Position numbers and translations under genes: made by a program
Assembly: GCA_027065515.1 (NCBI GenBank)
Contig: JAMOOM010000126.1
Coordinates: forward strand, 1 to 38,981
Source: Campylobacterales bacterium
GTDB lineage: Bacteria; Campylobacterota; Campylobacteria; Campylobacterales; Hydrogenimonadaceae
Direction of reading: 5' to 3'
Length of the DNA: 38,981 nt
Notes under the pieces: model-generated
What the model was told of the DNA's origin: nothing
Seen by the model: the letters and a program-made list of their open reading frames with translations, nothing else
Database searches by the model: none
Shown here: positions 3,505 to 32,844 of the stretch, piece by piece
Position numbering within the stretch: position 1 is the stretch's first letter
Layout: the number at the start of each line of letters is the position of its first letter

Positions 3505-3512
3505 AAGCTTCG

Positions 3513-3545: not shown

Positions 3546-3581
3546 ATGGGTATCTTGAAAACAATTACAAGGAATACCGGA

Positions 3582-4721: not shown

Positions 4722-4804
4722 AATATTATGGAAAATCCCAAAAACAAAGGCGCCTTACATGGTTCCTTTGCTATCATTACCTCAATACACACAAAGGCAT
4801 ATGG

Positions 4805-6388
4805 ATGGAAATAAAAACATTCGAAAAGATGCAAAAAAAGGCTACAAAGAAGTCTCAAACGGACTTTTTGCGCCTGGGGTTATCTTTGGTATTCATGGCG
4901 ATCGTACTGCTGGCCACGTGGAACAAAATTCCTGGCAATCCATTCCTGGCGGTCGCCGCGGTATTTGGCGCCTATATGGCGATGAATATCGGCGCAAACG
5001 ACGTCGCCAACAATGTAGGCCCCGCGGTAGGCTCCAAAGCGATGACGATGGTGGGGGCCATCATAATAGCGGCGGTTTTCGAATCGGCAGGTGCGCTGAT
5101 AGCCGGTGCAGATGTAACAGGAACGATCAAAAAAGGGATTATCGATATTCACGCCTTCGCCAATCCCGACTATTTCGTCTGGGCGATGACCGCCGCTCTT
5201 TTGGCAGCTGCATTGTGGCTCAATTTCGCCACATATCTGAAAGCGCCGGTATCCACCACTCACTCGATCGTAGGGGGCGTCATGGGCGGCGGTATCGCGG
5301 CAGCCGGAACTTTCGGTATCGTCCATTGGGGAACGATGGGCAAAATCGCTGCAAGCTGGGTCGTCTCACCCGTTCTTGGCGGTGTTATCGCAGCGGGATT
5401 TCTATATGCGATCAAACGGACCATTCTTTACAAAAAGAACACCAAAGAAGAGGCGATGAGACTGGTGCCCCTTTATGTGGCGGTTATGGGGTGGGCTTTT
5501 GTCACATATGCAGTACTCAAAGGGCTCAAACATATCGCAAAGATAGGCTTTCCGACAGCCTCCGCTATCGGCTTCGTTTTGGCTGTGGCGATCTTTTTCC
5601 TCGTAAAGGGCACTATCGCAAAATATGCCCACCTGCTCGACAATGAACGAATCAGCGTCAACCGCCTCTTTACGATTCCCCTTATCTTCTCCGCCGCACT
5701 GCTGAGCTTCGCGCACGGCGCAAACGACGTAGCCAATGCCGTAGGGCCGCTTGCAGGCATAGCGGATGCCTTGACACATGCCGCCGTATCGTCCAAAGCG
5801 GCTATCCCGCTATGGGTCATGGTGATCGGGGCGGTCGGAATCTCTTTGGGGCTGGCGCTCTATGGACCAAAATTGATCAAAACCGTAGGGAGCGAGATCA
5901 CCGAACTTGACCAGATAAGAGCGTTTTGCATAGCGCTTGCGGCAGCGATCACAGTGATTTTGGCTTCACAGCTGGGGCTTCCCGTAAGCTCTACGCATAT
6001 CGCGCTGGGCGGGGTTTTTGGCGTCGGTTTCCTGCGCGAATGGCTCGATCGCACACAGCGTCTGGAGTATCGGATAAAAGAGGAGAAAGCTCGTATCGAG
6101 GATCTGAAAAAACGACTCGATGCGTTGAAAAGAGAGCTGGAAACACTCGAAAGCAAAGATGAAAAGAGTCAATCTGATTACGAGAGGATCGTACGTCTTT
6201 TCGAGGAGATAGGCGAATATGAAAAGATGCTCAAAAAAGAGAGTAAAGCGCTAAAAAATGTCTATAAGACAAAATATGTCCAGCGAGCAGCACTGAATAA
6301 AATCGTCGCGGCATGGATCGTCACCGTCCCGGCAGCGGCCGTCGTCTCGGCTATTATCTTCTACGTCATCAAAGGCATGATGGTTTGA
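4805..6388 (+). CDS. pit: Pit-family inorganic phosphate permease with cytoplasmic coiled-coil insert
   Basis: A 527-residue inner-membrane transporter of the PiT family (Na+- or H+-coupled phosphate or metal-phosphate symport). Both halves carry the family signature: GANDVANNVGPAVGS at 63-77 and HGANDVANAVGPLAG at 304-318. About ten hydrophobic segments are visible. Between the last two, residues 410-491 form a long, highly charged stretch with heptad-like hydrophobic spacing, predicted coiled coil, before a final membrane helix. The ATG at 4805 has AAAGGC upstream. The 83-bp gap after the porin holds no clear promoter, so it is probably co-transcribed with it. This is the inner-membrane partner of the porins in a phosphate-uptake unit. 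Confidence 0.92.
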   Translation: MEIKTFEKMQKKATKKSQTDFLRLGLSLVFMAIVLLATWNKIPGNPFLAVAAVFGAYMAMNIGANDVANNVGPAVGSKAMTMVGAIIIAAVFESAGALIAGADVTGTIKKGIIDIHAFANPDYFVWAMTAALLAAALWLNFATYLKAPVSTTHSIVGGVMGGGIAAAGTFGIVHWGTMGKIAASWVVSPVLGGVIAAGFLYAIKRTILYKKNTKEEAMRLVPLYVAVMGWAFVTYAVLKGLKHIAKIGFPTASAIGFVLAVAIFFLVKGTIAKYAHLLDNERISVNRLFTIPLIFSAALLSFAHGANDVANAVGPLAGIADALTHAAVSSKAAIPLWVMVIGAVGISLGLALYGPKLIKTVGSEITELDQIRAFCIALAAAITVILASQLGLPVSSTHIALGGVFGVGFLREWLDRTQRLEYRIKEEKARIEDLKKRLDALKRELETLESKDEKSQSDYERIVRLFEEIGEYEKMLKKESKALKNVYKTKYVQRAALNKIVAAWIVTVPAAAVVSAIIFYVIKGMMV

Positions 6389-7163: not shown

Positions 7164-10100
7164 CTAATATAACATTGAATATTGGAGATAGACTTTAAAA
7201 ACCGACTCCGAATTGCCGGAAACTCCGGGCGTGACACCTGTCCCGATGGCCAAATGGCCCTGATGGAAGATATTTCCGCCGATACCCGCATCCATCTCCA
7301 GATTCATATTCCCGCCAACAAGATCGACAGATGGAGAGATGCCGAAAAACGGCCGCCACGGACGAACATGGGTCACTTTGTTCTGATACCCCCAGTAAAC
7401 GCCTGCTCCCAAGTTGAAATAATCGTCGGGCAGAACGTTTCCATGTACGGCCATAATTTTATCCAACACTCCTTTTTGAGAGTTTTTTTCGCTGAACGCT
7501 CCATGGTTTGCAAAAAGCGTAACGGCCAGATCGGGATAGCCAATCCTAAGAGAAGTGTAAGATTCTGCGCGGAGCACCATACCGCTCCCCAACGATACGC
7601 CATCTTGTGACAAGAAACGGTATTTTCCAGCTCTCATCTGAATCGTCGTGGAGGGCAGAAGCACATATTTGCATTCAAGCTCGACCCCTTTTTTCATTCC
7701 CCCAACGGCTAGGTAGTCACTCTCCAATGCCTCCTGATTGTGCAATAGCGAGAGCCTGCTCCTCCATCGGTCATCGATTTGGTATATCACCGATCCGGTC
7801 AACTGAAGATGGTTTTTCACTCCATTTCGGATTCCTGCGGCCAATGAGATCTGCACCCGGTCGGATTTGTGGAGGATCTGTGCCTCGTATGTATTGTCAT
7901 TTTGCGGAAGATATCGGTAAACGGAGTCATCCCAGCCGCTATTGTGACGCGCTTTCAGACTCTCTTTGAGATACCATCCTTCACCTATGGCATTTTTGTT
8001 TGTCATATTCGAAACTATCTGCTGCATACTGCTTCTGGAATCTGTCGAAACGTAAAAATGCCATTCATCGGCCCACTTGCGTTCAAGCTGTTCGTTTTGG
8101 TAATAGAGAAGTTCGTCGTTCCGATTCGTCTCCATGCCCCAAAAAGCCAGACTCTGCGCCAGTGCGATCCGTCCTGATCGTTCAGCCGCATCGACACGGT
8201 CACGTACGGGAAGCGCACAGAGGTCGCCATCCAAAAGAGTACTCATCTTATCCCTCTCGTAGAAATGGAGCGCAAGAGCGAGCCGCATCCACATCTCGGG
8301 GTTATGGAGACGATGAAGCGCTTCCCTGGCAGCCTCGTAAGCGTTGTTGTGCATATCCCATAATGCGCGGATCTGAAGATATCGCTGTCGGTCAAGATCG
8401 TCTTTCACGCTTTCAAGAAGCGCCTCGAATCGATCAGGGTTCATCGTGTAGATAGCCGCTTGAAGATAGTTTTGCAAAAATTTGCGCTCATGCAGCTTTT
8501 CGGGATCTTTCGACAAAATCCTGCCGAGTGAGCAGGCTACCTCTCTCATTTGGCGCATGAAAGCTTCATGCTCGTTTCGTCCCTGAAGAAGGTAGGCATA
8601 GGTCAATTTCATCTCGATGGATAGCTCCGCGGCCTTCGATATCTTTCCAAGATAGGCCATGGCCATATCCCCTTCCTGAAGCTTCATATGGGCTGCCAAC
8701 AGTGGCGCCCATAGTATTTCCGGCAGGCGAAGACCATCTTTTTCGAGTTTGGATACGAAAGCATGCAGCTGTACGCAGTCGCCGGCATCGACAAGAAGCC
8801 AGAGCATCTGTGCCTCCATCGCATGGTTGCCCGGATCAAGAAGCATCGCCATTTTCAGGGCTCGAGATGCCTCCTTTTTGAGATGAAGAGCGATCAGAAG
8901 ATACGCCTTGACGCTCCAGTAACGTGGATCTTGCAGCAAAACACTCTCCTGGTGCTTTTCGATATTTTCCATATGTCTCGAAAGCTCTTCATACAAGTGT
9001 CCATCAAGGGCGATATATGCATACGTTATAAAGTTTTCCGGCAATCTGTCGGTTTTGTAGATTCTCCACGCCGCTTTCGATGCGAGCAGAGGATCTTTTC
9101 TTCGATAAACATCGAGAATCCGCCGCAAATCGACTGTTCTGGCCGCTTTGTCGCCCATGAGTTCGAGGGCATGTTCTGATGCCTCATCATATTTCCCCAG
9201 ATACCACGCCAAATCCCCCGCCAATTGCAAAAAATCGACCGGAGCACTTCGGTCTTTGTGCTTGAGAGCTTTTTTGACAACGACATAGGCACTCTCCGGA
9301 CGGCGATTCAAAAACTCATAATAGGCGATACGCCGGGCCGTGGTGAAATCGTCCACACCCAAAGCGTTCAGCCGCCTTGCGACCTTTCCGGCTCTTTGCA
9401 TATCCCCGCTGTCAAGCGCCAACTGCAATATCCAAGAAAGAAGAGCAGGTTTTTTTGTTTTTTCATACATTTCAAGGAGAAAATCTATAGCACCCCCGGG
9501 ATCGCCGACCATATTGTAGAGATAGACAACGGTATCAATGTTCTTCTTGCTAGGATCCGTTCTGGCTTCATCTTTAGCCAACTTCAATGCCGATTCATAC
9601 TGATAGGCGTCGATCATCAGAGGCAGCAGTTTCTTGCGCAGTCCGGCGGTGGGATGCATAGCATAGGCACGAAGGTAGTGCTTCATGGCCTTCTGCGTCA
9701 TTTGTGACCACAGGGCACTCTTCGCAGCCCTCATCTGCCATGCGTAACTCCTTTTGCCACGCAATACAATCTCAGCGGTTTTGTAGGCGTGCAGCGGATC
9801 TTTTGTATAAAGAAAGGTCTTGAAGAGCAAATCGAAATCGCATCCTGACGAAATGCTCCTTTTTTCACACATTTTTACAAGATGAAGTGCAATGCGATGA
9901 GCATCCTCCAAGGCATTGGAAGCAAGATAGAATCGAAGAAGCTTTTGTGCATATCTTCTGTCTGCAATCATCTGTCTTTCATATCTTCTTGCCATACGTA
10001 AAGCCTCTTTATACCGATGATTCCAGGCAAGAATATCTATCGCTTTGAACAGATAGGCCGCTTGAGACCGCCTGCGATATGCTTGCAGATACAGATTGGC

Positions 10101-10805
10101 TGCATCCAAAGCCCGTTTCTCTTTGAGATAGATCGATGCCAGTGCATCTCTCCACCGATCTTCTCTCGCACGGTCGGCCTTCAAAAGACGCAAAAGAAGT
10201 GTTTTGGCAGTTTCAAACTCTTCAAGTCCTACGGCCAGATAGTAGCCTGTCTTGAGCCATGCAGTATCGTATGGGTTCTTTTCAAGTGCCGTTAAAGCGA
10301 TTGAAAGAGCCAAACGGTCGTTTTTCAGCCATAGCGCTTCGGCAAACCATCTCGAGACATGACCGGCATCGATCATGTCTCGCTCTTGCATCATCTCCAA
10401 AATGCCGGTGAGCTCCTCCTTGATTTTTTTGCGCAATCTGGCATCTGTCGTGGTGAAATAACGCCTTTTTTCAATCTCATACCATAATGGATATGCCATG
10501 CGTTGCGTTTGGGGATTTTTGCTAGCAATCAATGCGCTTACCATTTTTCGCGCCATATCCATTCGGTTGCTTCTGAAGGCAGCCTCGGCCAGTTTCAGCA
10601 TCAACGCTTCGTTGTGAGGATCCGCAGGAAGCAGGTTTTCCAGATAGAAAAATGCGAGGTCGTAGTTGCTCTTTTCTGAAAGCAACCCTTTTTCAAGAAA
10701 CGATTTTGGATAAAGAAGATACAAGATCACGACAAAAAGTGTGATCAGAAGAAGAATCTCAGGGCCTGAAACGACCTTGATGCGAGACCTAGGGGCATCG
10801 GACAT
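7164..10805 (-). CDS. pelB: PelB, TPR-rich outer-membrane secretin of Pel polysaccharide
   Basis: A 1213-residue protein with the PelB layout: one N-terminal membrane anchor (about 16-32), a very long periplasmic superhelix of tetratricopeptide-like repeats (about 40-880), and a C-terminal beta-barrel (about 900-1213) ending in tyrosine (YLQYSMLY). In Pel systems the barrel exports the polymer and the TPR region binds and localises the modifying enzyme PelA. The ATG overlaps the end of pelA by 17 bp, so the two are translationally coupled. It is the last gene of the pel operon here, and a gap of 80 bp separates it from the ThiF-like gene. Sequence conservation of PelB is low in general, so identity rests on architecture, size and position. 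Confidence 0.9.
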   Translation of the reverse strand: MSDAPRSRIKVVSGPEILLLITLFVVILYLLYPKSFLEKGLLSEKSNYDLAFFYLENLLPADPHNEALMLKLAEAAFRSNRMDMARKMVSALIASKNPQTQRMAYPLWYEIEKRRYFTTTDARLRKKIKEELTGILEMMQERDMIDAGHVSRWFAEALWLKNDRLALSIALTALEKNPYDTAWLKTGYYLAVGLEEFETAKTLLLRLLKADRAREDRWRDALASIYLKEKRALDAANLYLQAYRRRSQAAYLFKAIDILAWNHRYKEALRMARRYERQMIADRRYAQKLLRFYLASNALEDAHRIALHLVKMCEKRSISSGCDFDLLFKTFLYTKDPLHAYKTAEIVLRGKRSYAWQMRAAKSALWSQMTQKAMKHYLRAYAMHPTAGLRKKLLPLMIDAYQYESALKLAKDEARTDPSKKNIDTVVYLYNMVGDPGGAIDFLLEMYEKTKKPALLSWILQLALDSGDMQRAGKVARRLNALGVDDFTTARRIAYYEFLNRRPESAYVVVKKALKHKDRSAPVDFLQLAGDLAWYLGKYDEASEHALELMGDKAARTVDLRRILDVYRRKDPLLASKAAWRIYKTDRLPENFITYAYIALDGHLYEELSRHMENIEKHQESVLLQDPRYWSVKAYLLIALHLKKEASRALKMAMLLDPGNHAMEAQMLWLLVDAGDCVQLHAFVSKLEKDGLRLPEILWAPLLAAHMKLQEGDMAMAYLGKISKAAELSIEMKLTYAYLLQGRNEHEAFMRQMREVACSLGRILSKDPEKLHERKFLQNYLQAAIYTMNPDRFEALLESVKDDLDRQRYLQIRALWDMHNNAYEAAREALHRLHNPEMWMRLALALHFYERDKMSTLLDGDLCALPVRDRVDAAERSGRIALAQSLAFWGMETNRNDELLYYQNEQLERKWADEWHFYVSTDSRSSMQQIVSNMTNKNAIGEGWYLKESLKARHNSGWDDSVYRYLPQNDNTYEAQILHKSDRVQISLAAGIRNGVKNHLQLTGSVIYQIDDRWRSRLSLLHNQEALESDYLAVGGMKKGVELECKYVLLPSTTIQMRAGKYRFLSQDGVSLGSGMVLRAESYTSLRIGYPDLAVTLFANHGAFSEKNSQKGVLDKIMAVHGNVLPDDYFNLGAGVYWGYQNKVTHVRPWRPFFGISPSVDLVGGNMNLEMDAGIGGNIFHQGHLAIGTGVTPGVSGNSESVFKVYLQYSMLY

Positions 10806-13545
10806 CTATGCGTGCCTCTTTTTCTCTTTCATATCGAACGCTCACTCGATCGCCATGATGCACGATCGATGCGTTTTTTGGGAAAGTGACGATGCGACAC
10901 TCCCGCTCGGCCATTATCACGGTTTCGAGTGGCACATGCGACGCAAAATGCGCACTGAAACCGTTAGGATTTTTCCAAAACGCCATCGTCTTGCCATTGG
11001 AAGAAATCAGGCAGGCATGAGCCGACAGACCACCGCTTTCATAATGCAATTCCTTCTTTTCCTCTCCTGAAAGGTGCAGGTAAAGACCCTGTGGCGATTT
11101 TTTATATCCGATCACCCCATCACTCAGAGCGATGTTCGGCAGACGCCCATCTTCGAGTCTAAGAGTACGTAGTTCACGCAGCCCATAGATTTGCCATCCC
11201 TCTTGCGTATGTGCAATCGAGGCATCGTAATACTCCATCACTTTTGGAATATATTCACTCGTGTAGATCGGCATGACATCTCGCTTTACAGCCCAGTCAA
11301 AAACAGCTTTGAGCGCATTGAGCGGCGCCCGCTTGCTACCGGAATAGAAGTGGTAATAGATATCGATCGGTTTGAAACGTCTGGGCCGGTCCGTCATCTG
11401 ATATGTCTCGATAACGTTTTTAAATCCCCAAAAAGGGCCGTGCCAGTTATTCGTATAGAGGTTTTCGTTCTGCACTCCGCAATATATTTGCCAGTATGGC
11501 CCTTTACGTATCCCCAGTGGAGCGATATAGCTGAGCCAGGGATGGGCTTTTGTGATATGGGTGTCTCCACCGTTGATATTCAACAGATCGTGCCTGTAGA
11601 CATAATCTAGCACTTTCAAAGGCGGCATACAGTCGCCCGACCAGAAAACGGTACGGGCTTTGGGTTTGTGTGCGGGCAGAAGTTTCGTGTTGATATACCG
11701 CAAAGATCCTGCAAGCTCTCTGTCGAGTGAAAAAGTGTAGTTTTTTATCGGAAGGCGATATCGGACAGGTAAGTCTCCATTCTTGTCGATCTTTCCCCAT
11801 ATAAAAGGGTGCGAAAAGGTATGTGTAGCCGCTTCGACATTGAGCAGGCGATAGATCGATCGTGCAATCGACTCCATCTTTTTGGAGATTTTCGGATAGA
11901 GCCCGTAGGGTGCGATCTCCCCTTCCACAACGGAAACGGAATGGGGAATATGATAGCGTGACAGAATCTCATCTCGAATCACTTCGCTTGCGTAGATCTT
12001 GGAGTTCCACTCGGCTTTGTCGATGAACGCATCGCCATCGATGTGGGTAAAAAGCAGTCGTCGTCCGTTTTCCGTGGTCGGATCGGGTACAGGAATCGGC
12101 CGCATATGCAGAGCCTCTGAAAAAAGCCTGAATGGATCGATGGTCCAGATATTGTCACCGTTGAACTCGACTATGGATGCCTCTTCCACGGCATAACCAC
12201 CCCAGGGCATCAATGCAGCGAGTACATTCTTCTGCCTTTTGCCGTTCGTGACTCCGTATAAAATATTTTCGGCGTTCGGTTCAAGCATCGTTTCGTGAAA
12301 AAGGGGGTTTATCGGGGTTTCGTAATTCATCATATCGTTCGCTTCTACCGACAAGACGTGAGTGTTTTGAATGGTTTCGAGGTTTTGTACGGTTTTGATG
12401 CCGAGGGTTTTTAATGCGCCATAGCTCTCTGAGGGAATGGGGAACAATCCTAGGATGAGAGAATTTACACCGTGCAAACTGTTTTTTACGATCCAGTCAG
12501 CCAATTTTTTTGGCTGGGCATAGGGGCGGTCGAGCCACAATATTGCGCCGGAAAATCTCTCCCATGCATCTTCGGGCAGACCGCGCCTTATATCGGACAA
12601 TATCGGGATATATCCAAGATACTCTACAGGAAGAGAAGCCAGCATATGCACGGCTTGATCCTCTTTTGCAAATCTTGTTCCATCGTAAAGCATCAGTATC
12701 TCACGCTTGAGCACTTTCCGGTTGGTGATACCGTATCGGGTCAGATCCTTGCCTGACACATACCCTATAAACCCCTCTTTTGAAACTCTTTTCAAAAGCT
12801 CGGGTCCTTGCTCATAAAGCTTTTCTTGCGGGAGGTATTCTATATCGATCACATCTATACCTTCTGATGCCGCTTTGCGCATACGTGCCGAAAGCCACTC
12901 TCTGTCTCTTTTCTTCACGGGCTCGTAGGCAAGGTTTTCTCCGCCTATTCCATGAAAAAGCGACTCTGCCGCTACCGCGGTAATCATACCCTTTAGATCC
13001 GGGAGCAGTTCGAAACCGCGATTGAGCATGATTTTTATATCGGGCCAGCGATGCCTGATCTCTTTGATGAGCGATACCAGACCAAGCCGTTGTCTCTTTT
13101 GTTCGCTGCTTTCTGCCGCAGCTATTCGATACGAATCGAGCGTATCGAGAAATATGTTTTCGAAACCTTTTTCTCGCAATCTGCCAATAACCTCATCAAG
13201 CAAAAAATCCCTGTACGCACGACTGGAGAGATCCATGACATCACTCTTCCATGCAAGATTATGGCCGATCTTCCATGAGGTATCTATTTTTGGATAGTAC
13301 CATTGGCCACTCTCAACTTCACCGACGCTGACATATGCATAGACTTTCGGACGGTATGTTTTGAATCCGTGGGTATGCACATCTGTATTTTCGGGCTGCA
13401 CCACGATATAATCATGCGCTCCGACCAGTGGCCACGATATATCCCTGCCATAATAAAAAATAGCGCTTTTTCCGTTCGGCGCACTCCACAAACAGAGTGG
13501 GAAAAGCAAAACGAACACCAATTTACTGAAGCATAAAAGTCTCAT
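10789..13545 (-). CDS. pelA: PelA, Pel glycoside hydrolase and polysaccharide deacetylase
   Basis: A 918-residue periplasmic two-enzyme protein. After a signal peptide (about 1-21) comes a GH114-like hydrolase domain (about 25-270) with LDTLDSYR (133-140) and a candidate catalytic Glu194 in AAESLFHG. A middle domain (about 280-430) follows. The deacetylase region contains the metal-site motifs HIDGD (501-505) and HTFSHP (575-580), consistent with the CE18-type deacetylase of Pseudomonas PelA. It should partly deacetylate the GalNAc-rich Pel polymer and cleave it in the periplasm. Length is close to the Pseudomonas protein. The start overlaps the end of pelG by 23 bp. All expected catalytic signatures look intact. 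Confidence 0.93.
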   Translation of the reverse strand: MRLLCFSKLVFVLLFPLCLWSAPNGKSAIFYYGRDISWPLVGAHDYIVVQPENTDVHTHGFKTYRPKVYAYVSVGEVESGQWYYPKIDTSWKIGHNLAWKSDVMDLSSRAYRDFLLDEVIGRLREKGFENIFLDTLDSYRIAAAESSEQKRQRLGLVSLIKEIRHRWPDIKIMLNRGFELLPDLKGMITAVAAESLFHGIGGENLAYEPVKKRDREWLSARMRKAASEGIDVIDIEYLPQEKLYEQGPELLKRVSKEGFIGYVSGKDLTRYGITNRKVLKREILMLYDGTRFAKEDQAVHMLASLPVEYLGYIPILSDIRRGLPEDAWERFSGAILWLDRPYAQPKKLADWIVKNSLHGVNSLILGLFPIPSESYGALKTLGIKTVQNLETIQNTHVLSVEANDMMNYETPINPLFHETMLEPNAENILYGVTNGKRQKNVLAALMPWGGYAVEEASIVEFNGDNIWTIDPFRLFSEALHMRPIPVPDPTTENGRRLLFTHIDGDAFIDKAEWNSKIYASEVIRDEILSRYHIPHSVSVVEGEIAPYGLYPKISKKMESIARSIYRLLNVEAATHTFSHPFIWGKIDKNGDLPVRYRLPIKNYTFSLDRELAGSLRYINTKLLPAHKPKARTVFWSGDCMPPLKVLDYVYRHDLLNINGGDTHITKAHPWLSYIAPLGIRKGPYWQIYCGVQNENLYTNNWHGPFWGFKNVIETYQMTDRPRRFKPIDIYYHFYSGSKRAPLNALKAVFDWAVKRDVMPIYTSEYIPKVMEYYDASIAHTQEGWQIYGLRELRTLRLEDGRLPNIALSDGVIGYKKSPQGLYLHLSGEEKKELHYESGGLSAHACLISSNGKTMAFWKNPNGFSAHFASHVPLETVIMAERECRIVTFPKNASIVHHGDRVSVRYEREKEARIDVRCP

Positions 13546-14896
13546 AATCGAGATCCTCCATTTCGTCTCTTATAACCTTCAGGCTCCATGCAAAACTTAT
13601 CAACAAAGAGAGAGCATAGCCATAGCCATAAAAATAGGGGCCCATCTGCATAGAGGCAAAAGTTAAAAGTGCATTGAGCACAAAAAAGAGAATCGAAAGC
13701 CACATCGCTTCGACTCTTCTGTCCAGATAATAAAGAATCGCCAGTACCGACATAAATCCAAGCTGGAGCATGGCCCCCACCGTCAATATATAAAAAAGCC
13801 CCGTATAAAGCTGCGGGATATTCAGAAGCGAAAAAATCTTGGGCGCCAGCATAAAAAGCAGGATATCCACAATGCCTTGGGTTATTATAATTTCCCGTAT
13901 CGCATGACGGATCGTCTTGATCATTTCATCACGGTAATGCTCAATAACCTCAAGCGTGCCGTCGGTCCGCACGGCATCGTAGTAGAAATCATATTTTTGC
14001 GCAAAATCCGCCTCTAGTCTGTAAAAAAATATCGCCATGCCCGGTACAATGGAAAGATAGGCCAGAAATATCGGGAGGTCGTAAACGACGGAGGCATGCA
14101 GCTTTCCAATGACAGGATACCCGGTTGTCGGATAGTACCAGAATATGAATTTGTCCACCCAGGAACCCAAGTTATAGAAGAGTCCGGCAAATCCCAAAGA
14201 CCAATAAAATTTTCTATTGAAGAAGAAGCCGAAATCGATAAATCCATCCCCTTTGTAACTCTTGACTATTAAAACAAAAAGCCATACGAAAAGCAGAGCG
14301 TTTCCGAAAAAGAAGATAAAAAGAAGGTGATCCACATTTCCGCCAAAGAGATAGGAGAGTGCGACGATAAGCCCGTAGCTGACGGTATAGGCCCAAAGCA
14401 CCCCTTTGTAAAACTTGAGGCTTGTCGCCAGGATATTCGATATCCATACCCCACACAACACCAAAAAAATAGATACAACATTAAATTTGAAAAAAAGATC
14501 CTGTTGGGGAAAAATATAGATTGTCGCGGGCACCACAAAAGGCAGTCCCACCAACCATGCTGAAAAAATGGTCGCCAAATATGAGGGGAGTACTTTCTCT
14601 TCGCGGCGCGCATAGATCAAGTCTGCAATGTAGCGGGTAAACGGAAGCTGTATGAATCCTGTAATAATAAGGCTTGAAGCCAGTGCAATGGCATATGTAA
14701 TAACAATCTGAAACTGAACTGTTTCATTCATTTTTCCCCTGGTCGAAATATTGACGAAACCTACGATAATGATCGCGATAATCGAGATAACCCAGGGCCC
14801 CGAACTGAGAATCGCTGCATATCCATAGACTTTGCCCAGAGAAAAGAGGCTGTTTTTTTTAAGAATTTTCCGAAGCTCGAACCCTATGCCTGCCAT
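13523..14896 (-). CDS. pelG: PelG, polytopic membrane protein of Pel synthesis/export
   Basis: A 457-residue integral membrane protein with about twelve hydrophobic segments and the typical PelG opening MAGIGFELRKIL followed by LSSGPWVISI. PelG resembles Wzx/MOP flippases and forms the inner-membrane synthase complex with PelD, PelE and PelF, moving the growing polymer across the membrane. Size matches the family. Its ATG overlaps the 3' end of pelF by 13 bp. Nothing suggests damage. Confidence 0.93.
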   Translation of the reverse strand: MAGIGFELRKILKKNSLFSLGKVYGYAAILSSGPWVISIIAIIIVGFVNISTRGKMNETVQFQIVITYAIALASSLIITGFIQLPFTRYIADLIYARREEKVLPSYLATIFSAWLVGLPFVVPATIYIFPQQDLFFKFNVVSIFLVLCGVWISNILATSLKFYKGVLWAYTVSYGLIVALSYLFGGNVDHLLFIFFFGNALLFVWLFVLIVKSYKGDGFIDFGFFFNRKFYWSLGFAGLFYNLGSWVDKFIFWYYPTTGYPVIGKLHASVVYDLPIFLAYLSIVPGMAIFFYRLEADFAQKYDFYYDAVRTDGTLEVIEHYRDEMIKTIRHAIREIIITQGIVDILLFMLAPKIFSLLNIPQLYTGLFYILTVGAMLQLGFMSVLAILYYLDRRVEAMWLSILFFVLNALLTFASMQMGPYFYGYGYALSLLISFAWSLKVIRDEMEDLDYETFMLQ

Positions 14897-16392
14897 TTTT
14901 GCTCCAACTCTTCGTAAAGTTTTTCATAGCGCTCTAGAAACATATCCTGCCTGTAGTAACGATTCACTCTTCTGAGCGCGTTTTGCTGCATTTTGCGCCA
15001 CAGCTCTTCATCGTCGAGTATTCTTAGGTATTGGGCGGCCATCTCCGCCGGATTGGCGATTTTGGTTACGGCTCCTGCTTTTCCGATGGCGATATCTTCT
15101 TCATCCAGTCCGCCATAGATCAGATCGCGGCAGCTTCCCACATCTGTGGCGACAGCCGGAAGCCCAGCGGCAAACCCTTCCAGTACTACCAGTGGCATAC
15201 CCTCGCTGATAGAGGTAAGTGTAAGCAGGCCGCTCAACGGTAAAATCTCTTTTATATTACGAAATCCCAGAAATTCGATATTTTCTTCAAGCTTGAGAGC
15301 TTTGACCATATTCAGACACTCTTTGTAATATTCGGGGTCTTCATCCGTTGGCCCAGCTATCCATCCTTTTGCCTCTGGCATCGAATCGGCCACAATCCGC
15401 ATCGCACGAATAAAGCTTTTAATGTCCTTTATCGGGACGACGCGCCCAATCAGCGAGATGACAGGCGGAATGCCTTCTCTTTGGGAAACCAGAGCGGAAA
15501 GCGCATCGATATCGACACCGTTGGGGATTACCTCGCACTTGCTTTCATCTGCGCCAAAACGGATCTGTACCGCTTTTGCGCCGGGATAAAGAGATAATAT
15601 TTTTTCGCTTCTCGCATAGGCAAAATTGGCGATTTTTTCAAAAAACCGAATCCACATCCCTTTAACATAATTGAATTCTTCATTTTGCGTCATCAGTGCC
15701 GGTTTATGGTAGGCTATCCAGTCTGCGGAAAGCAGATCTATTTTTCTCTCTCTGGTGTATATGCCATGTTCGGTCAGCAGCATCGGGTGGCCGTAATGAT
15801 AGCTCGCAAGCGAAGCCAAAAAACCGGCATATCCTGTCGATGGGGCATGAAATATCTTACTTTTTGGCATCGATGCCGCAATTTCTGCAAGTATCCATAT
15901 GGGCTTGTGCATATTGCGAAGTGTCCAGAAATAATCTACAAACGGGATATCAGAAGCATTTGCAAGATATATTTTTCGGATATATTCCCATGCCTTTTTG
16001 CCATGCATGAAGTGAGAAAATGTCGTTTCTTCAAGATAAAAGGAGAGAGACCTCAGCGTCTCTGGTAACTCTTCATCGGATTTTTTAAACCACTGATGCA
16101 AAGACTCTATCTTCTGTCTTGCGCTCTCGCTCATATCTTTTTTGGATGCAAAGACATCCAAATCTGCTTCAAACAGATAATGATCTTCAAGATGCACGAG
16201 ATTTTTGGGCAAAACATAGAGAATATCACCATAATCCTCTCGCCTTGAACCCAAAAAAACAACCCCGAAAGTGATCTCCGGCAACCCCGAGATAAGCTGG
16301 TGGACCCAAGAGGAGACCCCTCCGCGAATGAACGGGTATGTGCCTTCTGCCAGAATCAGCACATCGACACTTTCACTGCGTGGGAATTTCAT
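14884..16392 (-). CDS. pelF: PelF, cytosolic glycosyltransferase of Pel synthesis
   Basis: A 502-residue GT4-type (GT-B fold) glycosyltransferase. The N-terminal signature VLILAEGTYPFIRGGVSSWV (residues 11-30) is diagnostic for PelF. The C-terminal donor-binding half has GRVVPIKDIKSFIRAM and the EGFAAGLPAVATDVG segment typical of GT4 enzymes, including the conserved Glu. It is soluble and uses UDP-sugars (UDP-GlcNAc/GalNAc in characterised systems) to extend the Pel chain, working with PelG, PelD and PelE. The gene start overlaps the pelE end by 20 bp. Confidence 0.95.
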   Translation of the reverse strand: MKFPRSESVDVLILAEGTYPFIRGGVSSWVHQLISGLPEITFGVVFLGSRREDYGDILYVLPKNLVHLEDHYLFEADLDVFASKKDMSESARQKIESLHQWFKKSDEELPETLRSLSFYLEETTFSHFMHGKKAWEYIRKIYLANASDIPFVDYFWTLRNMHKPIWILAEIAASMPKSKIFHAPSTGYAGFLASLASYHYGHPMLLTEHGIYTRERKIDLLSADWIAYHKPALMTQNEEFNYVKGMWIRFFEKIANFAYARSEKILSLYPGAKAVQIRFGADESKCEVIPNGVDIDALSALVSQREGIPPVISLIGRVVPIKDIKSFIRAMRIVADSMPEAKGWIAGPTDEDPEYYKECLNMVKALKLEENIEFLGFRNIKEILPLSGLLTLTSISEGMPLVVLEGFAAGLPAVATDVGSCRDLIYGGLDEEDIAIGKAGAVTKIANPAEMAAQYLRILDDEELWRKMQQNALRRVNRYYRQDMFLERYEKLYEELEQKWQA

Positions 16393-17326
16393 GAGACCCC
16401 CACATCAAAGAGATATAGTAGAGCTTGGGATTGAGCATAATCTTGGGATCTTTGGCAAGCAATGATTTGACGGAAATAAAATTGCGCCTATTGTAATATA
16501 TTTCAGCAAGATAAGGGGTGATGAAAGCGTTATCGTTCTCTTTCAGCTCTATGGCAAGCACAAACTCCTGTGCCGCTTTTTCATAATCTCCCTCGTAGAG
16601 GAAGACCTTTCCAAGCAGTATATGCATCTGCACATTGGCGAAATCGTATTTCAATGAGTAAAGAATGAATTTTTTCGACTCCTCTGCCATAAATTTTTCC
16701 AACACCTCGTCAGAAAGCGCAAAATAGACCAGATCCCAGTACAGATCAGCCAGATGAGAGGCCGCTTCGGCACGTTCTCTCTGTGTCTGGCCGCCCTCGA
16801 AACGCTTCAATTCCACTGCAATCTGCTCATTGATTCTCTTTTCCAGCTTATCTACAACTGAAAAGCAAAAGAGCCTCACCTCATCGTCGCGGTCCGCAAG
16901 TGCCAGTTTAATGATTTCCAAATGTTTTCTAGAAAGCTCATTTGCCAATGAAGCAAGTGCGCGTATTTTCATCCGGGAAGAGACGCTGTTCTCTTTAAAA
17001 AGCATCAACATCGCTCCTTCGCCGAACATTCTGCGAACCTGTGGAAACGAGAGAGAAAACTCTTCGATATTGATGACTTCTGCAACGTGAATTTCATTGT
17101 GGTATTTTACATGCAGCAAAAACCATACTGTCCAGACGGTAAAAACAACTCCCACAATGGGCATTGCCTGATTAAAAAGCAGAAAAAAAAGATAGACTCT
17201 CAAAGCTTCTTTGGGATATCGGTGACGCAGGAAAATCCATGCGACAAAAGCCGCAACCATAGAAACGAAAAAATAAGAAACATATGCCTCGAGAAAACCG
17301 ATACCCGGCCATACAACTTCACTCAT
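16373..17326 (-). CDS. pelE: PelE, membrane-anchored TPR protein of the Pel synthase
   Basis: A 317-residue protein with two N-terminal membrane helices (about 12-35 and 42-70) and a helical, TPR/HEAT-like cytosolic domain (about 110-310), including a clear TPR-like segment near residues 230-275. PelE is thought to hold the PelF-PelG-PelD complex together. Position between pelD and pelF and overlap with both genes (8 bp with pelD, 20 bp with pelF) support the call. PelE is poorly conserved in sequence, so identity depends on architecture and context. Confidence 0.87.
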   Translation of the reverse strand: MSEVVWPGIGFLEAYVSYFFVSMVAAFVAWIFLRHRYPKEALRVYLFFLLFNQAMPIVGVVFTVWTVWFLLHVKYHNEIHVAEVINIEEFSLSFPQVRRMFGEGAMLMLFKENSVSSRMKIRALASLANELSRKHLEIIKLALADRDDEVRLFCFSVVDKLEKRINEQIAVELKRFEGGQTQRERAEAASHLADLYWDLVYFALSDEVLEKFMAEESKKFILYSLKYDFANVQMHILLGKVFLYEGDYEKAAQEFVLAIELKENDNAFITPYLAEIYYNRRNFISVKSLLAKDPKIMLNPKLYYISLMWGSHEIPTQ

Positions 17327-18545
17327 CCTCTATTCCCATGTAGCGAAGAAATAGTTTTCGCTGATTCAGACGGAATGTAGCGTAGGTCAAGCTCTCTAGA
17401 TTTTCTTCGGCTATCGACTCCTTTATCCGGGCAACGAATCCCTCTACCGCCGCATCGTCCACAAGAGGAAAAAGAATCGCCATATAGTGCAATCCATGAC
17501 GAGAATAACCTGTGGGAATTTCAAGCAGTCTGATTGAATGCCGCACCTTCTGATCTAGCAGATGGTACAATAGTGGATCTTTTGTTTTGAAAACCAAAAG
17601 CATAGAATTGACATGAAACTCTTTTTCCAACAGCGAAAGCCTCTGCAGCTCGTAAGAGAACTCTTCGTTGAAAACAGCAGGCAGTTTCGCATCTCCCAAA
17701 ATCAGTTTTTTTTGCATCTGGTAACAAAAATACTGCATCAAAATTGCGATTGTGATGAGGGTATCTTTATTGTATGACAGAAAGGGCATCTTTCCAATCA
17801 TAAGGAGCCATTTCACCTGGTCGGCCTGAAGGCCTGGAATGACCGCCATATAGGAGCTGTTGGCATGCGGATCATCCGCGATAAAGGCAGGGTTTTTCTT
17901 CTCCAACGCCTTTTGCACCAGTGGGTCGTCGTAGTCTGCATTCAGATCGCCTTCGACAGCCAATGGCTTCAATGTTTCATCTTCGAGCCGTGCCAATAGA
18001 GCGGTTTGCACGCTATACGATTTTTGGAGCAATAAAAGAAATTCAGCATAGGCTTGATCGGTTTTTTCTTTGTATTTACCAAGTATCATTTCAAGAGCGC
18101 TTCGAAGGCTCATCGGCTTGACGACATACATCTTTTCGAGTTGATCATGCGATATTTTCAGTGCGTAAAACGCCTTGACCATCTCATCGAATTTATTATC
18201 CAGGTAATCTAGTTTATATCGTTTCTCATCGATGATACGATGCCAATAGTAGTGAAATTCACCATAAATGAGCACCAGCACAAACTGCGAAAGAAAGAGA
18301 GCGATATCGAATTGCAAATAGTAGTGTTTCATCACCGCGCCAATCAAAAGGAGCGACACGACCCCTGCCCCCAAACCGTGATACAGCGTCACAAGCGCCA
18401 AAAATATCGTAATTACCGGAATATCCATGTGAACCAAGCAGGGGTCGGCAGGGCTGAAATAGTACCCTGCCGCAAGATACAACAATGTAAGGACAATCGA
18501 CTCGAAATATCCGCTTTTCCCCCTCTGTCGGTTAAAAAATTTCAT
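17319..18545 (-). CDS. pelD: PelD, GAF plus degenerate GGDEF c-di-GMP receptor
   Basis: A 408-residue inner-membrane regulator of the Pel synthase. Hydrophobic segments at about 15-33, 40-56, 57-72 and 78-95 match the four membrane helices of PelD. A linker helix follows, then a GAF domain (about 140-275) and a catalytically degenerate GGDEF domain (about 288-405). PelD binds cyclic di-GMP and switches on polymer synthesis. The canonical RxxD inhibitory site is not seen; the aligned segment reads RLLE (339-342) just before SRHGLHY, which stands where GGDEF would be. The ATG at 18545 is preferred over an upstream in-frame TTG (18578) that lies inside pelC. The downstream end overlaps pelE by 8 bp. 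Confidence 0.9.
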   Translation of the reverse strand: MKFFNRQRGKSGYFESIVLTLLYLAAGYYFSPADPCLVHMDIPVITIFLALVTLYHGLGAGVVSLLLIGAVMKHYYLQFDIALFLSQFVLVLIYGEFHYYWHRIIDEKRYKLDYLDNKFDEMVKAFYALKISHDQLEKMYVVKPMSLRSALEMILGKYKEKTDQAYAEFLLLLQKSYSVQTALLARLEDETLKPLAVEGDLNADYDDPLVQKALEKKNPAFIADDPHANSSYMAVIPGLQADQVKWLLMIGKMPFLSYNKDTLITIAILMQYFCYQMQKKLILGDAKLPAVFNEEFSYELQRLSLLEKEFHVNSMLLVFKTKDPLLYHLLDQKVRHSIRLLEIPTGYSRHGLHYMAILFPLVDDAAVEGFVARIKESIAEENLESLTYATFRLNQRKLFLRYMGIEDE

Positions 18546-18555
18546 AGGCAGCCGC

Positions 18556-19056
18556 TCAGTGTTCGAGCATCTCTTCAATCATCTTTTGGGCTGTTGTTCC
18601 TATCGATGCATTACCCCAGTCATTTCCGGAAGCCGTAGCGCTCCAGACGACCTTTTTGGTTTCAAGATCGATCATTTTCATATGAAGGCTCACCGCCGGC
18701 TCGCCATCGATACCTGTCTTGTAGCGCCATTCGCTGACTCCCCCAAGAAGCAGATAATCACTCCCTTCGGAGACCGCTTTGAGAACCGCTTTGCGATCGC
18801 TTGTTTCTCCCTCGTCGATATGCCGCAACACTTCAAAGCCTTGTGCAATCATTACCCCCTCGACTAGATTCGCTGCACGCTTGCCGGCATCGGGCGTATC
18901 GGTATAGTTGTGAAGGGCAAAAAGAGAGACTTTTTTTGCAACCCCATCCATATTCGCCACAGGCACAGAAGTGCTCTTGGCTACTTTCGTAGCACATCCG
19001 CTCAGCAGCAATGTCACGGCTGTCAAAGCTAAAAAAACATACCCTCTCATACTCAT
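18556..19056 (-). CDS. pelC: PelC, outer-membrane lipoprotein of Pel export
   Basis: A 166-residue lipoprotein with a signal peptide and lipobox LLSGC (Cys21). The residue after Cys is Ala, not Asp, so sorting to the outer membrane is expected. The fold pattern (alpha/beta, with an N-terminal VSLFALHNYTDTPDAGKRAAN stretch and a C-terminal KVVWSATASGND segment) matches PelC, which forms a ring on the periplasmic face of the outer membrane under the PelB barrel. It is the first pel gene here. Its ATG overlaps the stop of the preceding nitrilase-family gene by four bases (ATGA), so no separate pel promoter fits between them. An alternative start two codons in is possible. Confidence 0.9.
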   Translation of the reverse strand: MSMRGYVFLALTAVTLLLSGCATKVAKSTSVPVANMDGVAKKVSLFALHNYTDTPDAGKRAANLVEGVMIAQGFEVLRHIDEGETSDRKAVLKAVSEGSDYLLLGGVSEWRYKTGIDGEPAVSLHMKMIDLETKKVVWSATASGNDWGNASIGTTAQKMIEEMLEH

Positions 19057-29528: not shown

Positions 29529-29604
29529 GACCCGTTAGCTCAGTTGGTAGAGCAATTCCCTTTTAAGGAATGGGCCGTTGGTTCGAATCCAACACGGGTC
29601 ACCA
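29529..29604 (+). tRNA. tRNA-Lys(TTT)
   Basis: 76 bases including encoded CCA. The acceptor stem GACCCGT pairs with ACGGGTC; the D arm (AGCTCAGTTGGTAGAGC) and T arm (GGTTCGAATCC) are canonical. The anticodon loop is CTTTTAA, anticodon TTT. It is first in the cluster. Its last 25 bases recur at 29740-29764. Confidence 0.97.
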
Positions 29605-29645
29605 TGAGTCCAATGTGGATCGAATGTAAAAATGCGTAAGCTTCT
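29580..29645 (+). repeat. Direct repeat copy 1: tRNA-Lys 3' end plus flank
   Basis: From the T loop of tRNA-Lys through CCA and about 40 bp beyond, this segment is repeated 160 bp further on. The first 26 bases are identical; the flank (TCCA..TGGATC.AATGTA..AAA..GTAAGCT) matches imperfectly. Confidence 0.85.
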
Positions 29646-29732
29646 TGCTCTTACGCCGTCTTCGGGTGCATAAATGCACATCGAATCGGCTTGCGAAGCT
29701 AAAAAAGCAAAGCAGTTTGCTTTTTCTTGACG
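29634..29732 (+). terminator. Hairpin-rich tRNA spacer with a terminator-like stem
   Basis: Three inverted repeats lie in the tRNA-Lys to tRNA-Glu spacer: GCGTAAG/CTTACGC (29634-29656), GTGCAT/ATGCAC (29666-29679), and AAAAAGCAAA/TTTGCTTTTT (29702-29725) with loop GCAG. The last has the T-run of an intrinsic terminator on either strand, though its stem is A/T-rich. If active it would separate tRNA-Lys from the downstream tRNAs or reduce their transcription. Confidence 0.5.
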
Positions 29733-29739
29733 CTTCTCA

Positions 29740-29805
29740 GGTTCGAATCCAACACGGGTCACCATAGATCCAAGATGGATCAAATGTAGAAAATATGTAA
29801 GCTCC
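29740..29805 (+). repeat. Direct repeat copy 2: orphan tRNA-Lys 3' fragment
   Basis: A 26-base exact copy of the tRNA-Lys T-loop-to-CCA end, then a degenerate copy of its flank. The 5' part of a tRNA is absent: bases before 29740 cannot complete the T stem, so this is a fragment and not a gene. The break falls in the T arm, where tRNA-targeting integrases commonly recombine. Confidence 0.85.
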
Positions 29806-29832
29806 ATGGTAGTATGCTGTCAAGGGTCAAAT

Positions 29833-29908
29833 GACCCCTTCATCTAGTGGCCAAGGATGCCATCTTTTCAAGGTGGACACGGAGGTTCAAATCCTTCAGG
29901 GGTCGCCA
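29833..29908 (+). tRNA. tRNA-Glu(TTC)
   Basis: 76 bases with encoded GCCA end. Acceptor GACCCCT pairs with AGGGGTC; T arm GGTTCAAATCC; anticodon loop TTTTCAA with anticodon TTC. The preceding bases AAGGGTCA form an inverted repeat with the 5' end of the tRNA. Confidence 0.95.
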
Positions 29909-29913
29909 AATCA

Positions 29914-29989
29914 GGTCGCTTAGCTCAGTTGGTAGAGCGCCACCCTTACAAGGTGGATGTCAGTGGTTCGAGCCCACTAGCGACCACCA
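29914..29989 (+). tRNA. tRNA-Val(TAC)
   Basis: 76 bases with encoded CCA. Acceptor GGTCGCT pairs with AGCGACC; canonical D and T arms; anticodon loop CTTACAA, anticodon TAC. Five bases after tRNA-Glu, so co-transcribed and processed from one precursor. Confidence 0.97.
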
Positions 29990-30002
29990 TTTACTATTCG
30001 GT

Positions 30003-30079
30003 GCGGTGGTAGTTCAGTTGGTTAGAATACCGCCCTGTCACGGCGGGGGTCGCGAGTTCGAGTCTCGTCCACCGCGCCA
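30003..30079 (+). tRNA. tRNA-Asp(GTC)
   Basis: 77 bases with encoded CCA. Acceptor GCGGTGG pairs with CCACCGC; anticodon loop CTGTCAC, anticodon GTC; T arm AGTTCGAGTCT. It is last in the cluster. The 172 bp after it hold only an A/T-rich leader for the next gene. Confidence 0.97.
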
Positions 30080-30251
30080 TCACTTTCGAATCTACTCCCA
30101 AAACAACTTCTCGCCACCAGATTACAAATATTCACCCATTCAACCAATTTATAATTTTCGGCATATCATGCTATATAAATAGGCAATGTTAATTTTCCTT
30201 TATGTTTTAATTCGTTATTATCTCAAAACAACAATACCAAGGAGTAACATA

Positions 30252-30806
30252 ATGGTCGATAACGATATAGTCAAACTGGCAAATGAAACCAAAAAACTGG
30301 ACGCTCTCGTCGTCGAAGACGAAAAAGAGGCAAATGAGCTGATGGTCTCCACTTTCGGCAACTTTTTCAACAGCGTCGATTCTGCCACTACAGCCGAAGA
30401 GGCACTAGAAAAGTATAAAGCCAAAAAACCCGATGTTGTATTCATCGATATCATACTTCCGGGTATGGATGGCTTGGAGCTGGCGCGCAAAATTCGGGAA
30501 ATCAATCCCGATCAGATAATTGTCATCATATCTGCAAGCAACGATATGAGCAAAATATCGGAAGCGATCAAGATTGGCGTGGACAGCTTTATTCAAAAAC
30601 CTATAGATTCAAACAAGATTATAGACCTTCTTAAAAACATCAATAACACAATCGCCAAGCGCAAAAAGATCGAAACGAAAACTTTCTCCATCACTCTTCC
30701 GATGGACTTGTACGACCGCGTACACGCAGATGCAAAAGTCGAACGAATCTCCAAAAATGCGATGATCATCCGCGCACTCAAAGCTTTCTACGACATCAAG
30801 CCTTAA
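30252..30806 (+). CDS. Response regulator with ribbon-helix-helix-like output domain
   Basis: A 184-residue protein. The frame is open further upstream, but the ATG at 30252 has AAGGAG nine bases before it and gives a normal receiver N-terminus. The receiver (about 14-135) has acidic residues E22/D23, phosphoacceptor Asp66 (FIDIILPG), Ser94/Ser96 region ISAS, and Lys117 (QKP). The C-terminal 40 residues read as an Arc/CopG-type ribbon-helix-helix: a beta strand KTFSITLP (143-150), helix MDLYDRVHADAKVER, turn, and helix SKNAMIIRALKAFYD. RHH output domains on receivers are uncommon as far as I know. It likely binds DNA as a dimer controlled by phosphorylation. The partner is probably the FIST kinase convergent with it, whose end it overlaps by 11 bp. 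Confidence 0.85.
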   Translation: MVDNDIVKLANETKKLDALVVEDEKEANELMVSTFGNFFNSVDSATTAEEALEKYKAKKPDVVFIDIILPGMDGLELARKIREINPDQIIVIISASNDMSKISEAIKIGVDSFIQKPIDSNKIIDLLKNINNTIAKRKKIETKTFSITLPMDLYDRVHADAKVERISKNAMIIRALKAFYDIKP

Positions 30807-32844
30807 AAGGCAGCTCAATCCAAAAAGCGGCCCCATGACTTGTGTTGTGGGCGCTTATTTTTCCATTTAAACGCTTCTCTGCAATCATTTTCGACATATA
30901 AAGTCCCAATCCGGTACCACGAGATTGATGCTTGGTGGTAAAATAGGGTTCGAAAATCTTTTCCAGTACGGCAGAATCTATTCCTCCAGCATTATCTCGC
31001 ACAATGATGTTGATTTTGTTGTTATAGCGTACCTGCACCCCTATTTCAGGGTTTTTTACTTTTCTCTCCTTGAGTACATCAATGGCATTATAGATGAGGT
31101 TTAGAAGAATCTGCTTCAAATCGTTGGGACTCCCACTGACAAACGCATCTTTTTCCGGAAGTGAAAGCTTCAGTTTGATCCGTTCATCTTCAAGCACTAT
31201 CGAGACGAGCCGAAGCGCATCACGTACCGTATTGCAGACTTCGAAAGCCCCTGGATGCGTATAATCTTCTCCCTTTGAGGCGAAATTTCTAAAATCGTCG
31301 ATCGTATCGGAGAGATATTTGAGCGTATTTTGAATTTTGTTCTCGGCAAATTCCACTGCATCGGGCGTCAAATTGCCTATTTTGCTTTTAAGCGATAGAT
31401 CTTGCATCACCAATGCAATAATGTTGAGAGGTTGCCGCCACTGGTGGGCGATATTGTTGATCATCTCCCCCATAGCCGCAAATTTGGACTGATGAAACAG
31501 CATTTTGTCTTTCTCTCTGTTTTTTTTGACTTCCAAGGCGATGCGCCTCTCGAGCGAAGCATTCAGATGGGCAAGCTCTTTGGTGCGTTTTCTAACCTCT
31601 TCTTCAAGATGGCGATTGAGCTGAACGATCTCATGGGTGCTGGAAGCTACCAGTGTGGAAAGATTGGCCAACAGCTGATCTCTCGAATCGACGACTATGT
31701 TGACTTTATCCGCTATTTCGGCTCTGGCATCCATATCCTCCGTCAACGCCACACGGGTAAGCGAAAAGTTCAAGAAGCAGTTGTTTTTTTGATAGTGAGT
31801 AATCTCTCCAAAAGTTAGCATCCCGAAAAACTGATTGGGATTTTTGAAATATTCGGAAGAGTTTTTCATGATATCCGAATAGCCGTATAGGTATGAAGCG
31901 CAGACATAAAACCAGACCACTTCCAGTGGAAGATCGGTGTAAACGTCCGGGATCATTTCATAGCGCTCCATCATTCTGCGATAGTGCCCAAATCCAATCT
32001 GCACCTTGTCACCCTCTTTGAAATGGCCGGTAAAAAATCCTCTATCGCCTTCCCATCGCAACATGGCCCTGGCAAGCGGCCCTTTCGATGTTTGCCTGAT
32101 AAGCGGATGCCTTATCGCGACATGCAGCATCTTCTCCTTGGTCATAGGACCGAAATATTTACCATATATATCCACCAATGGCTTGCCGTCGAGCTCTTCC
32201 AAATAGCGTCCATTGGCTTTTGTGACAACAAACTCCCGGCCGATTGGCTCCCAATCAAAGAAATGGCCGCAATTTATATTCAATGCCTCCCCATGGAAAA
32301 GCACTGCGACCATTCCCTCTTTTTCATAAATTTCACTTTTTGAGAAAACCACAAAATGCTCAAAAGGTTCCACATCCGATGCAATGCCGCCAAATATCGG
32401 GATTTCTGGCATTACCTCATTGCTTCTTTCTATAAGTGCCTCGACATTGAACTCTACCGCATTGGTCAATAGCAAAATCCCTTTGGTCTCTTTTTTAAGA
32501 GATCTTTTCAGACCGCCGATTACATCTTCCATATCTGCCAGCATATGCCCATTCAAAGATTTTTCATATATATCGATCCGGCTCTTCTCGAAATATGTGA
32601 TACTAAATACTATCTCTTTAAACAATATATTATTACAGCATGTCTGTACGACACTGCTCATACCAACTACGTGCGAACGAGGCAAGACTCTATTTAAAAC
32701 CGATTGAATCTCTTCGAATATCTCTTTGGATATTTTGCCGCAATTGACCTGTACGAGCAGGGGCGATTTGTCCTCAAGAGCCTGCGCCATGACAAAATCT
32801 CTAAATGCTTCTTCGCCTTCGTATTTGTAAACCCACTGCTTCAT
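30796..32844 (-). CDS. FIST-domain histidine kinase
   Basis: A 682-residue cytosolic sensor kinase with no signal peptide or membrane helix. Residues about 25-225 and 225-370 match FIST N and FIST C domains (GGIASDVEPF and the later GMLTFGEI segment), which are proposed small-molecule sensors. A coiled coil (about 400-455) leads to the HisKA box with His467 in GEMINNIAHQWRQPLN, a form common in Campylobacterota. The ATPase domain has NLIYNAID, DNAGGID and GTGLGLYMSKMI. The gene is 29 bp downstream of hisD and convergent with the receiver-RHH gene, its probable partner. The ligand is unknown. Confidence 0.93.
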   Translation of the reverse strand: MKQWVYKYEGEEAFRDFVMAQALEDKSPLLVQVNCGKISKEIFEEIQSVLNRVLPRSHVVGMSSVVQTCCNNILFKEIVFSITYFEKSRIDIYEKSLNGHMLADMEDVIGGLKRSLKKETKGILLLTNAVEFNVEALIERSNEVMPEIPIFGGIASDVEPFEHFVVFSKSEIYEKEGMVAVLFHGEALNINCGHFFDWEPIGREFVVTKANGRYLEELDGKPLVDIYGKYFGPMTKEKMLHVAIRHPLIRQTSKGPLARAMLRWEGDRGFFTGHFKEGDKVQIGFGHYRRMMERYEMIPDVYTDLPLEVVWFYVCASYLYGYSDIMKNSSEYFKNPNQFFGMLTFGEITHYQKNNCFLNFSLTRVALTEDMDARAEIADKVNIVVDSRDQLLANLSTLVASSTHEIVQLNRHLEEEVRKRTKELAHLNASLERRIALEVKKNREKDKMLFHQSKFAAMGEMINNIAHQWRQPLNIIALVMQDLSLKSKIGNLTPDAVEFAENKIQNTLKYLSDTIDDFRNFASKGEDYTHPGAFEVCNTVRDALRLVSIVLEDERIKLKLSLPEKDAFVSGSPNDLKQILLNLIYNAIDVLKERKVKNPEIGVQVRYNNKINIIVRDNAGGIDSAVLEKIFEPYFTTKHQSRGTGLGLYMSKMIAEKRLNGKISAHNTSHGAAFWIELPFKA

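Follow-up and report, generated by a model that had tools for sequence, protein, structure and literature searches.

The product of the gene at positions 30252-30806 of the window, the whole 38,981-nucleotide stretch of Campylobacterales DNA that was analysed, was confirmed by sequence comparison and structure prediction to be a response regulator in which a complete receiver domain is followed by a C-terminal ribbon-helix-helix (RHH) domain of the CopG/Arc type. The classification of response regulators generally rests on a small set of helix-turn-helix (HTH)-type outputs. The distribution of its orthologues, which occur as a single copy in each of the 49 of 397 Campylobacterota genomes that carry one, indicates that the receiver-RHH regulator is neither an artefact nor a one-off. 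The gene lies convergent to a histidine kinase gene and downstream of a promoter containing TGTTA motifs (Table 1), which together point to a candidate signalling partner and a candidate operator.

Table 1. Positions in the window of the receiver-RHH regulator gene, its domains, its upstream elements and the convergent kinase gene.
Feature	Position	Strand	Basis or remarks
Conserved promoter and candidate operator	30187-30221	+	Footprint in Hydrogenimonas
TGTTA	30187-30191	+	Within the conserved promoter element, upstream of the -10-like TATTAT
GTTA	30214-30217	+	Within the conserved promoter element
-10-like TATTAT	30216-30221	+	Element conserved through the genus
Shine-Dalgarno AAGGAG	30239-30244	+	Precedes ATG 30252; kept in every Hydrogenimonas orthologue aligned
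Receiver-RHH response regulator gene, 184 aa	30252-30806	+	Translation, Pfam and 56-member orthologue alignment; single copy per genome
Receiver domain, residues 19-127	30306-30632	+	Pfam Response_reg, E 3.3e-26
D66 phosphoacceptor codon	30447-30449	+	Within the receiver domain
Basic linker helix, alpha5 continued to residue 141 (AKRKKIE), straight into the RHH strand	30633-30674	+	AlphaFold model, helix 120-141
RHH domain, residues 142-180	30675-30791	+	Strand 142-150 (TKTFSITLP), helix A 151-164, helix B 168-179
Convergent FIST-type histidine kinase, 682 aa, soluble	30796-32844	-	Pfam FIST, FIST_C, HisKA, HATPase_c

Gene start, domain layout and genomic surroundings

The ATG at 30252 is taken as the true start of the regulator gene because it is preceded by a Shine-Dalgarno sequence, while a longer open reading frame starting at 30186 was rejected as it would begin within the conserved promoter. 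In the AlphaFold model of the protein, the helix formed by alpha5 and the linker is unbroken up to the start of the RHH strand, although the orientation of the receiver relative to the RHH domain is uncertain (pTM 0.65), and the models place the receiver at the N-terminal, DNA-proximal end of this strand. Two of the basic linker residues, K136 and K139, are invariant or nearly so in the orthologue alignment. No winged-helix family was matched by the C-terminus in Pfam, and the protein does not have the winged-helix output that marks the OmpR/PhoB regulators.

Directly upstream of the regulator gene, tRNA genes for Lys, Glu, Val and Asp are encoded at 29529-30079 (+), and the predicted open reading frames at 29535-29807 and 29847-30182 are probably spurious because they overlap these. 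Elsewhere in the window, a pel exopolysaccharide operon (7164-19056, -) encodes PelG, PelF, PelD-GGDEF, a PelB barrel and a PelA-like GH114 protein by Pfam, with small PelC/PelE-like genes interspersed, while a phosphate-type cluster at 1-6388 comprises a sensor kinase and response regulator pair (1-1994, -), a porin O/P-like protein (weak match) and a PHO4 phosphate transporter.

Evidence for the receiver and ribbon-helix-helix domains

The first-pass annotation had described the receiver as complete, with all phosphorylation residues in place, and both its Pfam match and its residues bear this out. The receiver model matches receiver structures by fold, and the E22/D23 acid pocket, D66, S94, F113 and K116 show little or no variation across 117 orthologues (one exception), with E22, D23, D66, S94 and K116 retained in 116 of them. 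A homologue in genome G347 (L192, 3409-3957) carries the substitutions D66E and D23S, has an intact RHH domain and lacks an adjoining kinase gene. This protein would be either a natural phosphomimic or a form in which phosphorylation has been lost, with the RHH domain retained even there.

The Pfam RHH_1 match in the window protein covers residues 145-181 (E 0.0049) and, at 17.2 bits, falls just under the family cut-off of 20.5 bits, while the L105 orthologue exceeds it with 23.2 bits. As a single sub-threshold Pfam match is no proof, four further tests of the C-terminus were made. In the first of these, RHH_1 was matched by every one of the 56 orthologues scanned (E<=0.1, the best with an E-value of 4e-5). 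No match to PDB sequences was obtained with a single RHH sequence as query, while a profile of the C-terminus placed CopG, AvtR and another CopG-family RHH protein among its top PDB matches, with weak E-values of 0.7 to 1.1 (CopG 0.86). Residues 132-184, the last 53 of the protein, were modelled (mean pLDDT 84.8) as an extended strand and then two helices, at 20-33 and 37-48 in model numbering, and the best fold match of this model in the PDB by Foldseek is CopG in its DNA complexes (1b01, 1ea4; probability 0.99). StnY, Rv0298, Arc, AmrZ and PutA are also among the top folds matched by this monomer model, with probabilities mostly >0.8 and E-values of about 0.1 to 1, which are weak because the RHH domain is tiny.

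RHH domains fold as intertwined, stable dimers, in which the intermolecular beta-ribbon sits in the major groove. Across the 117 orthologues the strand TKTFSI[ST]LP is almost invariant: T144, F145, S146, I147, L149 and P150 do not vary and position 148 is either S or T, so that the polar, predicted DNA-facing positions T144, S146 and T/S148 are present in every one. The S167-K168-N169-A170 stretch at the N-terminus of helix B is likewise invariant. In CopG, Arg4 and Thr6 contact bases and Thr8, Lys28 and Ser29 contact the backbone (PMC8251345), and in the profile alignment these five residues correspond to T144, S146, T/S148, K168 and N169, respectively. The two most conserved segments of the regulator are receiver beta5 and the RHH strand (0.946 and 0.948). 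Within Hydrogenimonas, pN/pS is 0.030 for the RHH domain vs 0.071 for the receiver, with synonymous sites near saturation. This points to stronger purifying selection on the RHH domain and indicates that the domain is more than a chance resemblance. The C-terminal strand-helix-helix of the Arc/CopG type that had been proposed on first reading is thus upheld by the orthologue-wide RHH_1 matches, the CopG, Arc, AmrZ and PutA folds and the conserved strand, and neither a C-terminus of another fold nor one devoid of a DNA-facing strand agrees with these fold matches and conserved polar positions.

Distribution of the receiver-RHH regulator

The window belongs to Hydrogenimonas, the nearest named loci being those of MAGs of this genus. 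Orthologues are encoded in 17 of the 18 Hydrogenimonas genomes, counting that of the window, as well as in the Sulfurimonadaceae, and occur sporadically, in single or few genomes, in two other families of the order. In the eighteenth Hydrogenimonas genome (G011) both the regulator gene and the hisD gene of the same locus are absent, and since hisD is missing too this gap is uninformative and probably an assembly hole. An RHH-only search of the phylum for other, non-orthologous receiver-RHH proteins yielded just the orthologues, stand-alone CopG-like proteins and noise, and no receiver-RHH protein was found in a plasmid collection or in viral contigs. Systematic searching was confined to the Campylobacterota, and one scan of genome contigs returned 80 loci, all in records whose titles place them in this phylum. 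The first-pass annotation knew of no well-described system of this kind, and literature searches, with subscription papers mostly outside their reach, similarly produced no described bacterial receiver-RHH regulator, the nearest being an archaeal RHH-HisKA-REC architecture. Given this coverage of phyla and papers, it is quite possible that receiver-RHH proteins occur more widely, or that a database already lists their architecture.

Promoter and candidate operator

The full promoter element of the regulator gene is the only match in the genome at 3 mismatches. In 36 non-redundant Sulfurimonadaceae-type upstream regions, TGTTA/TAACA was counted on either strand and compared with dinucleotide shuffles, and 79 occurrences were observed upstream of the regulator vs 27.5±5.0 expected (z 10.2). 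Hydrogenimonas alone shows a modest excess (14 vs 5.8±2.5). The neighbouring promoters of gltX, mdh, oorD, metG, glnS and the kinase gene have |z|<=1.5 for TGTTA, while an excess is found at those of gltA (z 2.8) and TetR (z 3.4). A TetR operator was rejected as the sole source of the sites, as the excess remains where a TetR gene is not a neighbour (66 vs 21.6±4.3), although it may account for them where one is adjacent. The most strongly over-represented spacings of GTTA pairs are 5, 16 and 26 in opposed and 10 in direct orientation, about one helical turn apart, while of the smaller peaks at 6, 9, 19 and 25 some depart from this phasing (6 and 19 being non-phased). Each peak is made up of few pairs (5-7), and common ancestry may account for the peaks.

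As TGTTA is enriched in the regulator's own promoter and mostly not in neighbouring promoters, autoregulation is suggested, whereby the regulator would control its own promoter, perhaps as a CopG-type repressor, via the candidate TGTTA sites. These sites could also be bound by some other regulator. In the Sulfurimonadaceae (L042-L110) the regulator gene is often flanked by gltX on one side and by reductive-TCA genes (sucCD, oorDABC) or citrate synthase on the other. The reductive-TCA neighbours were considered as regulon members in Sulfurimonas and rejected, the mdh and oorD promoters being without enrichment and that of gltA reaching just the z of 2.8 given above.

The convergent histidine kinase

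The 3' end of the kinase gene overlaps the regulator gene by 11 bp, and a kinase is the next gene in 10 of the 10 Hydrogenimonas loci where the contig extends that far. A tandem second copy of the FIST kinase is present in three Hydrogenimonas genomes, G016 (L187), G007 (L188) and G008. FIST domains of NosP proteins sense NO via heme and control kinases (PMC12570481). Among the Sulfurimonadaceae, 12 loci whose neighbours differ also encode a convergent kinase, which has PAS sensors in the cases scanned. G401 (L191) has, at 3450-4253 and convergent with the regulator gene, a gene for a kinase core of 267 residues in which no sensor domain is recognisable. The N-terminus of the Sulfurimonadaceae PAS kinase aligns to the start of the FIST kinase (hhalign probability 94.8, 57 columns), a stretch that is lacking in the L105 kinase, and this shared FIST-like start suggests a common origin with a swapped sensor. 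In the kinase-core tree, the adjacent kinases of each family form one clade but the two families are not joined, and a single ancient pair and two separate recruitments are therefore both possible.

The genes of a cognate pair would be expected to recur side by side, and the convergent kinase is therefore probably the partner of the regulator. That it is instead an unrelated neighbour, with the true kinase encoded elsewhere, appears doubtful. Such an arrangement would be in keeping with most Sulfurimonadaceae loci, in which gltX or glnS lies downstream of the regulator gene and no kinase is found beside it, with hisD occupying the kinase position in G436, and with kinase cores of the two families that are not one resolved clade. 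However, convergent kinases abut the regulator gene in two families whose surroundings differ, and the kinases of both have the FIST-like start in common.

Proposed mode of action and alternatives

On the evidence of sequence and predicted structure, it is reasonably likely that the protein is a two-component DNA-binding regulator with a CopG-like RHH output, in which phosphorylation of D66 by the neighbouring kinase tunes how cooperatively RHH dimers bind to phased TGTTA sites. The kinase, predicted to be cytosolic and equipped with a FIST sensor here and a PAS sensor in relatives, would phosphorylate D66 of a regulator that is probably dimeric beforehand, since RHH domains fold as intertwined dimers. 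Each standing RHH dimer would read about one half-site unit via T144, S146 and T148 of each strand. Phosphorylation would alter the alpha4-beta5-alpha5 face of the receiver, upon which the receivers of neighbouring RHH dimers may pair or unpair, and this may in turn change cooperative binding along the phased TGTTA sites, those in the regulator's own promoter included. Cooperative assembly of dimers is favoured because the promoter has several phased half-sites.

The first-pass annotation had proposed that phosphorylation could control dimer pairing directly. In its strict form the unphosphorylated protein would be a monomer with an unpaired strand, and dimerisation of the receivers would join the strands and so drive formation of the RHH dimer. 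The continuation of alpha5 without a break into the strand implies that receiver geometry must constrain the ribbon, and the ranking of beta5 and the RHH strand as the two most conserved segments is also in line with this proposal. RHH domains, however, normally fold only as stable dimers, and L192 keeps its RHH domain without a working phosphorylation site, although its D-to-E substitution may mimic phosphorylation. The strict form is accordingly less likely, and unlikely overall, an effect of phosphorylation on contacts between RHH dimers being favoured over one on dimer pairing itself. It is just as improbable that unphosphorylated receivers sit beside the ribbon and block or distort DNA binding until phosphorylation frees it, with the oligomeric state unchanged; attachment of the receiver at the DNA-proximal strand end, unlike in NikR, where the sensing domain comes after the RHH domain, would suit such a steric release, but the relative orientation of the two domains is uncertain in the model (pTM 0.65). 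It is very improbable that the C-terminus is a protein-protein module, akin to an antitoxin RHH domain without DNA binding, through which the regulator acts by binding a partner. Some RHH domains do form part of antitoxins, which have protein partners as well, and the antitoxins Rv0298, VapB, MazE and CopASO are among the fold matches, but T144, S146, T/S148 and the S-K-N-A of helix B are invariant or restricted to S/T in the 117 orthologues. The protein also stops a few residues beyond helix B and so lacks the tail by which antitoxins bind their toxins.

Significance and comparison with known systems

Tuning of cooperativity between standing RHH dimers thus remains the favoured reading. An RHH domain that is complete only as a dimer and is controlled by a receiver would represent a simple system for studying the effect of phosphorylation on a DNA reader that is an obligate dimer, and with a candidate operator and a candidate kinase at hand the regulator is directly testable. 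Its hosts, Hydrogenimonas and Sulfurimonas, oxidise sulfur and hydrogen and are abundant in vents and sediments, and the Sulfurimonas group has cultured members. It is tentatively suggested, as a possibility short of an even chance, that these proteins form a distinct bacterial regulator class, in which an unbroken helix joins the receiver to the N-terminus of the ribbon, phosphorylation determines how RHH dimers pair, how they are spaced or how cooperatively they bind on phased TGTTA sites, and the G347/L192 lineage, with its phosphoacceptor replaced by Glu, is perhaps locked in one state.

The best fold and profile matches of the output domain are CopG, Arc and AmrZ (RHH_1, PF01402), which have the same strand-helix-helix fold and a conserved DNA-facing strand. 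CopG and Arc, however, have no sensing domain, whereas here a receiver is fused N-terminally beside the ribbon. The OmpR/PhoB, NarL and NtrC regulators have winged-helix, HTH or Fis-type outputs, in contrast to the 40-residue beta-ribbon domain, complete only as a dimer, of the present regulator, and on a reading of the sequence the OmpR/PhoB motif GADDYxxKPF has the counterpart GV[DN]SFIQKP[IV]. The well-known RHH proteins with a sensing domain carry that domain after the RHH domain. NikR resembles the present regulator in combining an RHH domain and a signal-receiving domain in one chain (PMC9696931), but it senses nickel by a C-terminal metal-binding domain rather than by an N-terminal phospho-receiver. 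RHH and receiver domains also occur in one polypeptide in Lokiarchaeum proteins of RHH-HisKA-REC architecture (PMC5847659); these are hybrid kinases with an N-terminal RHH domain, while the present protein is a two-domain bacterial response regulator with the RHH domain at its C-terminus. In the NosP/NosK/NosR nitric-oxide two-component systems, FIST forms a protein of its own, NosP, and the output of the regulator is related to c-di-GMP, whereas here FIST domain and kinase make up one protein and the regulator is a predicted RHH DNA-binder.
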